Source of the DNA: an uncultured Mycoplasmatota bacterium
GTDB taxonomy: Bacteria; Bacillota_I; Bacilli_A; RF39; UBA660
Length of the DNA stretch: 42,117 bases
Assembly: GCA_946413985.1 (NCBI GenBank)
Contig: CAMKMS010000009.1
Location: 1 to 42,117 of the forward strand
Direction: 5' to 3'
Part shown: in pieces, positions 1,828-39,506 of the stretch
Layout of the letters: the number at the start of each line of letters is the position of its first letter
How positions within the stretch are numbered: the first letter of the stretch is position 1
Position numbers and translations under genes: made by a program
Notes under the pieces: model-generated
What the model saw: the letters and a program-made list of their open reading frames with translations, nothing else
Databases searched by the model: none
What the model was told of the DNA's origin: nothing

Positions 1828-2133
1828 TTACATAAACATAGGTCCACAAGCATTTACATTACAAAATTCATTTTCTTCTGTACAAGTATAACATGGTGTA
1901 TAAGTGTGTCTATAAATATGGTGATTTATAATTCTAGTGTTAATTGGTTTAATATGATTTACATCATGAATTATTTGTTTATGTATACATCTTTCTTCAG
2001 GGCATTCATATACTGGCATACACATTTGTGGAGCACATGAATTTGTATCCATTACTGCTTTATCAGGTGTAACCTTTATTTCAGCACTACCTTCAACATT
2101 ATAATTTTGATACATACCTTCAGTATTTACCAT
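1828..2133 (-). CDS. CotD-like spore coat protein
   Basis: The 101-residue protein is rich in His and Cys and has the CotD-type core IKPINTRIINHHIYRHTYTP, flanked by cysteines (C45, then CYTC and CNVNACG near the C-terminus). CotD in Bacillus is an inner-coat protein made late in the mother cell. The core matches the repeated N-H-x-H pattern of that family, but the N-terminal 35 residues I do not recognise. The ATG has a strong AAAGGAGTGA site. Upstream is a match to the sigma-K promoter (AC-16-CATANNNTA; 2157-2183), the sigma that drives cotD in Bacillus. It is a one-gene unit with its own terminator. Alternative: a generic cysteine-rich metal-binding protein. Confidence 0.72.
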   Translation of the reverse strand: MVNTEGMYQNYNVEGSAEIKVTPDKAVMDTNSCAPQMCMPVYECPEERCIHKQIIHDVNHIKPINTRIINHHIYRHTYTPCYTCTEENEFCNVNACGPMFM

Positions 2134-24223: not shown

Positions 24224-24829
24224 GTGAAGAAATTATTAATTATATTATTACTATTATTTAGTATTATAAAGGTGCATGCTTATGAAAATGATTATTTTAA
24301 TATTGATATACCAAATAATTATAATTTAACAGAAGAAACAACCAATTCTTATAAATGGATAAAAGATAATAATTATATTGCAATATCGCTATCTAAAAGT
24401 GATTATAATATTAAAGAATTTACAAAAGAAGATATTAACAATCAAAAAATAAGTATTGAAAAAAGAATAAATGATAGATTAAAAGATTTTAATGTAAAAG
24501 CAACTATTACTTCAATAGAAAAACAAAATATAGACGATTTATATTATTTAGAATATGATTTGTATTTACCAAGTAAAAATAGTATTGGATTTGATACTTT
24601 TCAAAAAGGAAGAATCTATACACATAATGGATATTTGATTACATTTATATTTAATAGTGATACAACCATTAATAATGAAGAATATAATACTATAATAAAA
24701 TCATTTATTATCAAAGATTTTACAATAATAAACAAATACAGAGTTTATTTAACATTAACAATTATTATTGGTGCTATAGCAGGAATTATTGGATTCTTTG
24801 TTTCATTAAAAAAAGAAAAACATTATTAA
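24224..24829 (+). CDS. Exported protein with C-terminal membrane anchor, unknown
   Basis: The 201-residue protein starts at GTG (24224) with AGGTGAT upstream. A signal peptide is followed by a likely cleavage after VHA (residue 19), a soluble extracellular domain (FNIDIPNNYNLTEE onward), then a membrane helix near residues 174-193 and a short basic tail. The pattern of the domain recalls PsbP/DUF1795-like stress proteins (Y-F-x-I-x-IP-x-x-Y at the start), but this is only a resemblance. It is one of only three plus-strand genes here and is convergent with the sigma factor gene, sharing a bidirectional terminator. Confidence 0.78.
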   Translation: MKKLLIILLLLFSIIKVHAYENDYFNIDIPNNYNLTEETTNSYKWIKDNNYIAISLSKSDYNIKEFTKEDINNQKISIEKRINDRLKDFNVKATITSIEKQNIDDLYYLEYDLYLPSKNSIGFDTFQKGRIYTHNGYLITFIFNSDTTINNEEYNTIIKSFIIKDFTIINKYRVYLTLTIIIGAIAGIIGFFVSLKKEKHY

Positions 24830-24838
24830 TGTTTTTTT
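24816..24838. terminator. Bidirectional terminator between convergent genes
   Basis: AAAAACATT-ATT-AATGTTTTT with U-rich flanks on both strands, between the exported protein gene and the sigma factor gene. Confidence 0.8.
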
Positions 24839-25469
24839 ATGTGAAATTTTTCTTTATTTTACTTAATATTTGTTTTTCATTTCTTGACACTTTAACTTGA
24901 GTAATGCCCATTAATGTAGCTGTTTCCATCTGAGTATATCCCAAATAGTATCTATAATTAATAAGCAATTTTTCATTTTCATTTAATTCATTTATTCTAT
25001 CATTTAGATTAATAATATCGTCTAAATTAATTTCTTCTTTATCATGAAGTGCATAATCATTTTCTTCTATATTCTTTGATTTACTTATACTTTCAATTAT
25101 ACAAAGCATTTGTATTTCATCAATTTCCATAAAAGAACAAATTTCATGAAATGATACTTCCCTATTATACTTATTACTTAGTAAGTCTTTTACTTTAAGA
25201 TATCTTTTATATAAACTATACATTTCATTACTTATTATTATATTACTATCTTTTCTAATATAATCAATCATTTCACCTAATATATACTTATATGCATATG
25301 TTGAAAATTTTATATTATTATCATTATAATTTTTACTTGCTTTTATTATACCAATACACCCTGCTTGATATAAGTCATCAATACTATAATTTTCTTTATA
25401 TCTTGATGATATTTTATAAATTAACCATTCGTTTTCTTTAATTAACTGTTCTATATTATCTGTTTTCAT
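24837..25469 (-). CDS. RNA polymerase sigma factor, SigF/SigG family
   Basis: The 210-residue sigma-70 family protein has region 2 (SIDDLYQAGCIGIIKASKNY, then FSTYAYKYILGEMIDYIRKD), a region 3 helix-turn-helix (NREVSFHEICSFMEIDEI) and region 4 (ENEKLLINYRYYLGYTQMET, then MGITQVKVSRNEKQIL). These closely match forespore sigmas F and G (compare ISQVQVSRLEKKIL). Length is somewhat shorter than the usual 250-260 because the N-terminus is reduced. It follows a dacF-like gene, as sigF does in Bacillus, but spoIIAA and spoIIAB are absent; one unknown membrane protein gene lies between. No ribosome site precedes the ATG: TATTAT ends six bases before it, so the transcript may be leaderless. Role in sporulation is inferred. 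Confidence 0.88.
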   Translation of the reverse strand: MKTDNIEQLIKENEWLIYKISSRYKENYSIDDLYQAGCIGIIKASKNYNDNNIKFSTYAYKYILGEMIDYIRKDSNIIISNEMYSLYKRYLKVKDLLSNKYNREVSFHEICSFMEIDEIQMLCIIESISKSKNIEENDYALHDKEEINLDDIINLNDRINELNENEKLLINYRYYLGYTQMETATLMGITQVKVSRNEKQILSKIKKNFT

Positions 25470-25489
25470 ACTTAAATAATACTAGATAA

Positions 25490-26026
25490 TTATAATTTTT
25501 TAAATCGATTCGACATAACTAGATTTATTTTTCTATTGCTAATTGTAAAGAAAATAAAGATGAAACTTAAAAAAGATAAAATCATAAATACATAAATATT
25601 ATCATATGTTTTTGGATTTTCTATTTCTTGTGTAATCTCTTCTTCTGGCTTTTCTGGCAAATGTGTTAATGCACAAAAATGTTTAATGCATTCTTTATCA
25701 TTAAAAACTATTGCTCCATTTGAATCCAATAAAACATACTCATTTGTAATATATCTATAAAATGTTTTTTTAGATTCTTCTATTTTTATATAACCATCCA
25801 ATTCTTTATAATACTCTGTTGTTTCTTCTCTTTGAATTTCATTTGTTTCTTCATTTAATACTTCTTTATACCATAAATACCAATCCTCACTTTCATAAAA
25901 TTTACTATCAAGCCAATAAGGATATTCTTCTTGCCATTCACTATAAGTAATATATTCTTTAGCATTTACTTTAACAAAACAAAAACACAATAAAAAAAAT
26001 AAAACTATTATAAAAGTTCCTTTCAT
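25490..26026 (-). CDS. Exported, C-terminally anchored protein between dacF-like and sigma genes
   Basis: The 178-residue protein has a signal peptide (MKGTFIIVLFFLLCFCFVKVNA, likely cleaved after 22). An aromatic-rich outer domain follows (KEYITYSEWQEEYPYWLDSK, with two cysteines in DKECIKHFC). A membrane helix lies near residues 143-161, and a basic cytoplasmic tail of about 16 residues ends the protein. I recognise no family. It has a strong AAGGAGG ribosome site. Its place is that of spoIIAA-spoIIAB in the classic dacF-sigF operon, so a link to the sigma factor is worth considering, but the tail is too short to resemble a known anti-sigma domain. Confidence 0.78.
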   Translation of the reverse strand: MKGTFIIVLFFLLCFCFVKVNAKEYITYSEWQEEYPYWLDSKFYESEDWYLWYKEVLNEETNEIQREETTEYYKELDGYIKIEESKKTFYRYITNEYVLLDSNGAIVFNDKECIKHFCALTHLPEKPEEEITQEIENPKTYDNIYVFMILSFLSFIFIFFTISNRKINLVMSNRFKKL

Positions 26027-26086
26027 GTTTACCTCCTTCTACTAATATTGTTAGCTAAGAAAGTGGCAAAACACTTCTTTTTATAA

Positions 26087-27229
26087 TCATTTTATTTTAG
26101 ATCCACTAATCAAATAAGAAAAAATATTTTCAATAGTATTAATATAACTTGCTTTTTTAACATCTTCTTTAATTATTAGATTATATTCATAACTATTATT
26201 ATCATATGATAGTTTTAATTTACCAATAACATCATTTTTTTTGAGTGGTGCTTTTTTATTATATAATTCTTCGCTTATTTTATAGTTTACGTCTTTATTA
26301 TTCTTATTTACAATTAAATTTACATCACTATCCAAATAATACTTTACATTTCTATTTTTAGCATTATTTATTGTCGTTGTTTTTACATATTCGTTTTTAT
26401 CTATTATTTTTTTACTTCCATACTGGCTAAAACCATATTCCATCATATTAACTGTATCACTACTTCTGTTGTCTTTTGAGTCTTCTTTCATAACAACAGA
26501 TATTAATCTCATATTATTTCTTTCCATTGTTGCAGTTAAACAATAAAGTGCTTTATCCGTATAACCTGTTTTTAATCCATCTATTCCACTATAAAATCTT
26601 ACTAATTTATTTGTATTAACAAGCCAATGATTTTCTCCAGAAACATCAATATAATCTTCATAGGTACTAGTTATTTTAAGTGCTAAAGGATGAGAAACAA
26701 GTTCTCTTGCTATTAATGATAAATCATAAGCTGTTGTTAAATGTCCTTTTTCATCTAATCCATGTGGATTTTTGAAAGTTGTATTTTTACATCCAAGTTC
26801 TTTTGCTCTTTCATTCATCATTCTAACAAAATTATCTTCTGTCCCACCAATATATTCTGCCATTGCAACAGATGCATCATTTGCAGAAGCTATTCCTATT
26901 CCCTTAAGTAATGTTTCAACTTTTATCTTACTTCCCTCTTTTAAGAATATTTGAGTTCCTCCCATAGAAGAAGCATTTTTAGAAATAGTAACCATATCAT
27001 CTAAATTAATTCTACCATCTTCTAATGCTTCTATTGTTAATAATAATGTCATTATTTTTGTCATACTAGCAGGATACATTTTTTTATTCATTTCTTTTTC
27101 ATATATTAATTTTCCAGTTGAAGCTTCTACTAAAATAGCACTTCCTGCATGAGGAGCAATTTCATCTTCACTAGCATATACTCTAAATATAAATAAAAAT
27201 ATTAATACAAAGAAAAAGAGTTTTTTCAT
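26087..27229 (-). CDS. D-alanyl-D-alanine carboxypeptidase, DacF/PBP5-like (S11)
   Basis: The 380-residue penicillin-binding protein removes the last D-Ala of peptidoglycan side chains. After a signal peptide (about residues 1-19) come the three active-site motifs: PASMTKIMT (SxxK, near residue 53), SANDAS (SxN, near residue 113) and GLKTGYT (KTG, near residue 219). The C-terminal beta domain and a final amphipathic anchor helix follow. dacF of Bacillus precedes the sigF operon and is forespore-expressed; here the same order relative to a SigF/G-type sigma gene suggests the DacF branch, though a vegetative DacA role is possible. The ribosome site is AGGTGAT. Confidence 0.92.
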   Translation of the reverse strand: MKKLFFFVLIFLFIFRVYASEDEIAPHAGSAILVEASTGKLIYEKEMNKKMYPASMTKIMTLLLTIEALEDGRINLDDMVTISKNASSMGGTQIFLKEGSKIKVETLLKGIGIASANDASVAMAEYIGGTEDNFVRMMNERAKELGCKNTTFKNPHGLDEKGHLTTAYDLSLIARELVSHPLALKITSTYEDYIDVSGENHWLVNTNKLVRFYSGIDGLKTGYTDKALYCLTATMERNNMRLISVVMKEDSKDNRSSDTVNMMEYGFSQYGSKKIIDKNEYVKTTTINNAKNRNVKYYLDSDVNLIVNKNNKDVNYKISEELYNKKAPLKKNDVIGKLKLSYDNNSYEYNLIIKEDVKKASYINTIENIFSYLISGSKIK

Positions 27230-38626: not shown

Positions 38627-38978
38627 AATAATTCTTAATAAGCCATGTTCTGTACCTAAAAGGTGACAAACATTTATCTAAGGATTACTCCTTCCCTCAA
38701 AAATTTCTTATTCATTCTTGATGGGTTCCCCTACCAAATTTGGGTTTCTCACTCGTGGGGTTTACCTCGTTCCACCATCATTATTCCTAATGACATCGTC
38801 TCTATGGCACTTTTATATCTACGCGTAATCAGGTCTTGATTACCTCGAAGCCGTTAATATTTTCATATTACCTAGGGTTATTTTTTTCCCTAGCACGAAC
38901 GTTTCAAACATCACAGTTTGAGTGAGCATGGACTTTCCTCTACATATAAGATATGCAGCGTTTGTCTAAAGAATTATT
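38627..38978 (-). ncRNA. rnpB: RNase P RNA, class B (Bacillus type)
   Basis: The RNA component of RNase P, which matures tRNA 5' ends. Conserved parts are plain on the minus strand: AGAGGAAAGTCCATGCTCAC near the 5' end, the AACGAGGTAAACCCC part, GAGAAACCCAAATTTGGTAG, and ACAGAACATGGCTTA at the 3' end. The ends are set by a perfect P1 helix, AATAATTCTT (38978-38969) with AAGAATTATT (38636-38627). The 5' strand of P1 includes the gpsB stop codon, so the RNA is made from the gpsB promoter or one inside gpsB. No terminator separates it from rodZ. Confidence 0.95.
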
Positions 38979-39288
38979 CTCCATATACTACTTTTTCTAA
39001 GTCACTAATTCTCTTTAATAAGTCAACATTAGTAACTCCTTTATTAGAGCCAGCTATATCTAAAGATGCTTTTAGATTTCTATTTTCTGATTTTAACTTA
39101 GAATTTTCATCTTCAAGTCTTTTAATTTCGCTAATCATCTTTTTAGTTGTTGTTTCAAATTCAACATAGTCTTTTATAATCATATCTAAAAATTGATCAA
39201 CTTCTTGTGGTCTATATCCCCTTGCATCAATTTTAAAATCTTTTTCTAATATTTCTCTAGCCGTTAAAAACTTCTTTTCTTCGTACAT
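38974..39288 (-). CDS. gpsB: GpsB/DivIVA-like cell division protein
   Basis: The 104-residue protein has the DivIVA/GpsB N-terminal lipid- and partner-binding domain (FKIDARGYRPQEVDQFLDMI, residues about 17-36), followed by a coiled coil (ISEIKRLEDENSKLKSENRN) and a short C-terminal helix. GpsB coordinates penicillin-binding proteins between side wall and septum. I chose the ATG at 39288, preceded by GAGAGG; the longer reading to 39390 runs through a consensus promoter and a terminator and is not coding. The gpsB-rnpB order matches Bacillus. Confidence 0.92.
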   Translation of the reverse strand: MYEEKKFLTAREILEKDFKIDARGYRPQEVDQFLDMIIKDYVEFETTTKKMISEIKRLEDENSKLKSENRNLKASLDIAGSNKGVTNVDLLKRISDLEKVVYGE

Positions 39289-39313
39289 CTTTTTTAGCCT
39301 CTCTTCCAGTCTA

Positions 39314-39342
39314 ATTTTACGACAAATAGGCATTTTTGTCAA
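39314..39342 (-). promoter_or_regulatory. Consensus sigma-A promoter for gpsB-rnpB
   Basis: TTGACA (39342-39337), 17 bases, TAAAAT (39319-39314) on the minus strand, directly after the terminator hairpin of the preceding small transcript. Confidence 0.85.
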
Positions 39343-39372
39343 TAAAAGAGCAAAACCTATAAGATTTTGCTC
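39343..39372 (-). terminator. Terminator of the small transcript before gpsB
   Basis: GAGCAAAA / TTTTGCTC form an 8-bp stem with a 9-nt loop and then UUUUAUU; it contains the stop codon of the 29-codon ORF. Confidence 0.85.
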
Positions 39373-39446
39373 TCTATATTTAAAATACATTTATTTAATT
39401 CACTATCTAATTCCTTAAAAATACTATTAATATTGTCTATTATCAT
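39357..39446 (-). CDS. Possible 29-residue small ORF in its own transcript
   Basis: A short ORF (MIIDNINSIFKELDSELNKC and nine more residues) lies between an extended -10 TGCTATTAT (39460-39468) and a terminator. The predicted RNA starts at 39453 with GGGAGGG immediately followed by ATG. The ribosome site therefore abuts the start with no spacing, which is poor for translation. The peptide looks like an acidic amphipathic helix and matches no family I know. The locus may be a small RNA of about 110 nt rather than a gene for a peptide. Confidence 0.35.
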   Translation of the reverse strand: MIIDNINSIFKELDSELNKCILNIESKIL

Positions 39447-39468: not shown

Positions 39469-39506
39469 CTTTAATAATATTTTTCATTACTTTCGACATA
39501 TAAAGA

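Follow-up and report, generated by a model that had tools for sequence, protein, structure and literature searches.

The sigF locus analysed here probably belongs to spore-forming Bacilli in which the SpoIIAA/SpoIIAB/SpoIIE switch has been dismantled, SigF activity is set mainly by Spo0A~P-dependent synthesis, and an exported protein encoded upstream of sigF is a mere neighbour. The textbook example of two genetically identical cells adopting different fates is the SpoIIE-SpoIIAA-SpoIIAB switch, and SpoIIAB serves as a marker of spore formers. The locus lies in the window, meaning the whole stretch of 42,117 nucleotides that was analysed. This stretch forms contig C9 in the draft genome G000 (1.19 Mb, 51 contigs, completeness 77%). 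The genomes of the window's family are drafts throughout and the bacteria are probably uncultured, and sporulation is read from the genes alone.

The three open reading frames named in the preliminary description, a dacF-like gene, a gene for an exported protein and sigF, were confirmed at the positions listed in Table 1, all on the minus strand. Neither spoIIAA nor spoIIAB was found between or beside these three genes, in agreement with its statement that both are missing from the locus. The dacF gene upstream and the Spo0A box in front are shared with the Bacillus spoIIA operon (dacF-spoIIAA-spoIIAB-sigF). Most relatives also share a SpoIIAA-type STAS gene before sigF, and most relatives outside the window's genus share the spoVA genes downstream of it. 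A dacF-like gene is located directly upstream of spoIIAA-spoIIAB-sigF in SpoIIAB-containing outgroups, too. Unlike Bacillus with its SpoIIE switch, the family has no SpoIIAB and no SpoIIE, and its SpoIIAA has no phospho-serine. The window also lacks SpoIIAA, and the exported-protein gene stands between dacF and the sigF unit. Window positions 24224-24829 (+), 3' of sigF, encode a conserved convergent exported protein of ~200 aa with no Pfam family, which occupies this place in most genus members.

Table 1. Positions of the genes and sequence elements of the sigF locus in the window
Feature	Position	Strand	Basis or remark
dacF-like D,D-carboxypeptidase, 380 aa	26087..27229	-	Pfam Peptidase_S11 (5.9e-79) and PBP5_C (1.1e-11)
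Exported surface protein, 178 aa	25490..26026	-	Alignment A1, 22 members; no Pfam family
NPKTYDN motif before the C-terminal TM helix	25598..25618	-	NP[KQ]TxDN in most genus members; putative sortase-type sorting signal
Spo0A box TGTCGAA	25509..25515	-	Exact; inside the 3' end of the exported-protein gene and 46 nt before the start of sigF
Candidate -10 element TATTAT	25476..25481	-	Aligns with TATTAT/TATATT-type hexamers at equal box distance in genus-mates
First four sigF codons ATGAAAACAGAT (MKTD)	25458..25469	-	Leftover of the spoIIAA start
sigF (spoIIAC) orthologue, 210 aa	24837..25469	-	Within the family SigF clade (tree)

The window's sigma factor carries the Pfam domains Sigma70_r2 and Sigma70_r4. 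Its best NCBIfam model is spore_sigF (TIGR02885, 5.8e-40), at 137.6 bits and thus below the curated cut-off of 321, and the protein is diverged as judged from its sequence. The best match among solved structures is the SigF chain of 1l0o, the Geobacillus SigF-SpoIIAB complex. In a tree of 73 sigma factors, where SigE and SigK were present as rows without named references for comparison, the window's protein fell within the clade of its genus (99) and within the family SigF clade (SH-aLRT 97, 34 rows). This clade grouped with SigF of the outgroup Bacilli, apart from the SigG clade (99). Genes resembling spoVAC-spoVAD-spoVAE (named by eye) lie 3' of sigF in most relatives outside the genus and in outgroups; they do not in the window's genus. 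Because of the tree placement, together with this downstream synteny in most non-genus relatives, the protein is assigned as a true SigF orthologue. The SigF/SigG family proposed for it earlier was borne out, with a position inside SigF and outside the SigG clade. Selection on sigF is purifying in the pairs tested (dN/dS 0.07-0.41), and the family SigF is fast-evolving in the tree. A comparison by eye of the SigF residues that contact SpoIIAB gave no discrimination.

SpoIIAB was searched with TIGR01925 against its cut-off, and SpoIIE with TIGR02865. No SpoIIAB above the TIGR01925 cut-off was detected in any of the 37 family genomes, whereas all eight SpoIVA-positive outgroup genomes had one. 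Family matches to SpoIIE were weak, at 16-22 bits to short ORFs (~250 aa), compared to 158-274 bits in the eight SpoIVA-positive outgroups. Across 395 genomes sampled from the whole class, SpoIIAB was present in 0/45 SpoIVA-positive genomes inside the family versus 69/72 outside it (Fisher p 3e-29, a value that ignores shared ancestry). A single ancestral loss is likely. Relocation of SpoIIAB to another place in the genome was considered and rejected: the GHKL matches examined in the family are histidine kinases or fragments of them, and the best match to the SpoIIAB model in the window's genome is a 650-aa hybrid histidine kinase. An intact spoIIAA-spoIIAB-sigF set elsewhere was looked for and was not found. 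The reduced sporulation control suggested in the preliminary description is supported by these results, as neither SpoIIAB nor SpoIIE was found in the genome or the family and the window's genome carries SpoIIGA, SigE, SpoIVA and a sigma factor of SigK type.

The SpoIIAA-type gene was followed across 34 loci, which came from 33 family genomes and contig L006 (family not known). It lies beside sigF in 26 of them, counting G018, where metK alone intervenes, and is missing in eight, the window and seven others. Its stop codon often overlaps the sigF start. The 26 family SpoIIAA rows were aligned with eight outgroup rows (alignment A2), and the conclusions rest on these outgroup rows and not on the B. 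subtilis SpoIIAA row. TIGR02886 matched 32 of the 34 rows; the genus row tested gave 37 bits, below the cut-off of 114.75. The AlphaFold2 model of a genus-member SpoIIAA has the STAS fold (pLDDT 95.7), and its best Foldseek matches are SpoIIAA from the SpoIIAB complex (TM 0.92). SpoIIAB phosphorylates and SpoIIE dephosphorylates a serine of SpoIIAA, Ser58 in B. subtilis (PMC3517971). This position holds another residue in 25/26 family rows, whereas DSSG is found in 8/8 outgroup rows. Purifying selection still acts on spoIIAA, with dN/dS at 0.11-0.30 in four pairs. With SpoIIAB and SpoIIE absent and Ser58 lost, the kinase, the phosphatase and the phosphosite are thus all gone, and the protein body was kept.

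These properties bear on two alternatives. In the relatives that keep SpoIIAA, the protein without its phosphosite might regulate SigF or RNA polymerase directly, a role with which the intact STAS fold, the dN/dS values, the frequent overlap with the sigF start and the separate Spo0A box found where the two genes are split in G018 are all consistent. We consider it unlikely, because the gene is missing in the window and seven other sigF-bearing loci, and to our knowledge no STAS protein is known to bind a sigma factor directly. Alternatively, the family may have a SpoIIAB that has diverged beyond the reach of TIGR01925, or an anti-sigma factor of other descent. Such an unrecognised factor would hold SigF until the forespore, and the switch would have been replaced, not lost. 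Some control of this kind is expected, since restriction of SigF to the forespore is thought to be essential in Bacillus (PMC3517971), and the purifying selection on the STAS protein beside sigF is as it would be with a surviving partner. However, no gene next to sigF that could encode it is conserved in every member, and the GHKL matches named above offer none. Both the fast evolution of SigF and the lack of the STAS gene in 8/34 loci fit a binding partner that has departed. An unrecognised anti-sigma factor is a possibility to be taken seriously, though a doubtful one.

A scar of spoIIAA was detected in the window. Over the 60 nt around its sigF start, the window agrees with the closest relatives' spoIIAA start at 47-48/60 positions, compared to 17-25/60 for the relatives' sigF start. 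The window's sigF and the relatives' spoIIAA open with identical bases over the first four codons (ATGAAAACAGAT, twelve bases), and both start 46 nt from the Spo0A box. Since the start region matches spoIIAA and not sigF, a deletion of spoIIAA has fused its promoter and first four codons to sigF.

TGTCGAA is the consensus core Spo0A site (PMC3485338). Upstream of the spoIIAA-sigF unit, or of sigF where spoIIAA is absent, an exact copy was found in 32/34 loci; the expectation from shuffles was 0.09 over 38 loci, and the control gave 2/278 for other genes of the same loci. In several loci, another exact box stands 26 nt upstream of the first. In G018 (locus L099), spoIIAA and sigF, with metK between them, each have their own box, 57 and 64 nt upstream. 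No box was found in the three loci that have the exported-protein gene and no sigF. Spo0A-box control is probably ancestral, because an exact box 55-75 nt before spoIIAA is present in G043, G046 and G057, three out of four outgroups examined. With the candidate -10 element, the mRNA of the window would have its 5' end at or near the sigF ATG, which makes it a putative leaderless message. We conclude from the sequence that sigF is probably controlled by a Spo0A-box promoter, without a partner switch. The sole other exact Spo0A box in the window (39492-39498, -) lies ~100 nt upstream of an ORF (38974-39390, -) that resembles DivIVA/GpsB by eye and may be a division gene under Spo0A control.

In the genus of the window, the Spo0A box of sigF is usually located inside the 3' end of the exported-protein gene. 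There it reads as the C-terminus FVES[IL] in one frame (TTT GTC GAA TCG ATT) and as LSN or MSNR in another. As it is translated in differing frames, what is conserved is the DNA and not the peptide, and the exported protein has a conserved tail because a Spo0A box belonging to sigF is embedded in it. The FVES[IL] tail had been considered as a binding peptide and was rejected as a translation of the box.

The exported protein itself has recognisable relatives in 17/17 genus-mates searched, and its gene stands beside sigF wherever these have sigF; therefore, the 178-aa ORF is a real gene, and the conservation beside the sigma gene on which the preliminary description had proposed a check was confirmed. 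The family of this protein was found only in the genome family of the window and in contig L006. It is present as a single copy, either at the sigF locus or at the place that sigF once occupied. Numerous further large ORFs in these genomes match its profile in the C-terminal part only. Compared with its relatives of 340-450 aa, the 178-aa form is missing the central beta domain (alignment A1), and the AlphaFold2 model of a 358-aa relative shows an all-beta ectodomain (pLDDT 87). A fold search returned weak matches, among them a weak resemblance to DUF4425, which is galactose-binding-like. Matches to the NCBIfam models LPXTG_anchor and EF0750_LPXTG were also weak, and the alignment shows a signal peptide, the motif, a TM helix and a basic tail. 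The signal peptide, an NPxTxDN motif, the TM helix and the basic tail are shared with sortase-anchored Gram-positive surface proteins, from which the exported protein differs by an ectodomain that has no Pfam match and resembles DUF4425 weakly.

The preliminary description saw in this gene a replacement of spoIIAA and spoIIAB, and possibly a new membrane partner for a repurposed sigma factor. The first claim is not upheld, since most relatives with the gene still have spoIIAA downstream of it. As a membrane partner, the protein would be an anti-sigma factor or a signal receptor for SigF, and its position adjoining sigF or spoIIAA-sigF in 15/15 sigF-bearing genus members and in several other genera would agree with this. 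However, about a dozen family members with SigF and without SpoIIAB lack the gene, and it is retained in G005, G006 and G008, where no sigF was found. Only ~15-20 residues are predicted to be cytoplasmic, their conservation tracks the Spo0A box in any frame, and the C-terminus is of a common sorting type. A role as SigF partner was rejected on this distribution and on the frame-independent tail, and the idea can hardly be upheld. With about a dozen SigF-bearing members lacking it, the protein is instead an outward-facing neighbour and not a substitute for SpoIIAA and SpoIIAB. It would be a cell-surface protein that is encoded upstream of sigF by chance.

By gene content, the family still consists of spore formers. 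SpoIVA was detected in 33/37 family genomes, mostly at full length, and in the window's genome it matched at 601 bits over the full length; YlbJ (TIGR02871) is also among the sporulation genes that support this status. The window's genome has SigA, a SpoIIGA-like gene overlapping the SigE gene, and a SigK-type sigma gene, the names SigE, SigK and SpoIIGA resting on reading of sequence and gene order by eye. SigG is present in most family members. In the draft G000, neither SigG nor its flanking gene was found; the missing flanking gene suggests an assembly gap, and a genuine loss of SigG is possible. Since SpoIVA is kept in 33/37 genomes, loss of the switch is not coupled to a general loss of sporulation genes.

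Sporulation might instead be decaying in the lineage, which would make the sigF locus a functionless relic. Genomes G005, G006, G008 and G022 without SpoIVA, in which no SigF or SigG match was found either, would agree with such a decay, as would the missing SigG of G000. It is quite improbable in view of the SpoIVA counts, the purifying selection on sigF and the retention of the Spo0A box together with sigF. Three genus-mates, G005, G008 and G006 (loci L130, L131 and L132), have no sigF, SigG or SpoIVA and retain the exported-protein gene at the same site; they are apparent recent losses of sporulation.

In the dismantled-switch reading that we prefer, SigF would be synthesised at the onset of sporulation from a Spo0A~P-dependent promoter, and its activity would be set mainly by the time and place of synthesis and not by an anti-sigma factor letting it go. 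Where relatives retain the STAS protein without a phosphosite, that protein would have taken a new role close to SigF. As the partner switch is lost, the family must restrict SigF to the forespore some other way, and transcriptional control alone is insufficient as an explanation of forespore specificity. Confinement would have to come from another asymmetry, an unrecognised anti-sigma factor or the STAS protein in a new role. The last is excluded as a general answer because the window's species has no STAS protein. It is somewhat unlikely that these endospore formers obtain forespore-specific SigF without any anti-sigma factor, through Spo0A-driven synthesis and an asymmetry other than the switch. 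If they do, endosporulation can proceed without the textbook partner switch.

Field, Bowerman and Hugenholtz (2024; PMC10868615) have already tabulated that the order RF39 lacks spoIIAB and spoIIE. The window's family shares the lack of both genes and, judged by this pattern, probably belongs to RF39. In the sections examined, that paper deals with neither the locus nor the lost phosphosite, nor with the embedded Spo0A box, the exported protein or the scar of spoIIAA. A literature phrase search for loss or lack of SpoIIAB gave no match. The bare absence is thus known, and as far as we found, no description exists of the rewired locus, the loss of the phosphosite or the box embedded in the neighbouring gene. 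The SpoMAG spore predictor reports spoIIAB in all predicted spore formers and scored RF39 MAGs at 0% (PMC12536801). Marker-based spore predictors will miss spore formers of the kind described here. A lineage without the switch that has SigF, in most members SigG and SpoIVA, in G000 also SigE and SpoIIGA, and a matching loss of the phosphosite makes forespore specificity without a switch testable. Furthermore, the Spo0A box within the coding sequence of a neighbour is a clear case of a regulatory site moulding a protein tail.

Several minor observations were made on other sporulation genes. Capture of SigF by CsfB was considered and rejected; by eye, Asn occupies the equivalent of B. subtilis Glu39 in one family SigF only (G028). 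Asn45 of B. subtilis SigG is required for CsfB binding (PMC3174212). At the equivalent position, SigG of the genus-mates (L028, L030, L032-L036) has Glu or Lys, and most other family members have Asn; CsfB control of SigG may also have changed in the window's genus. A 101-aa Cys/His-rich protein encoded at window positions 1828-2133 (-) resembles a CotD-type spore coat protein by eye. The pro-sequence of B. subtilis SigE comprises 27 residues. SigE of the window's genome (L003, 1351-2031) has a short pro-sequence, with ~17 residues before the predicted cleavage region.
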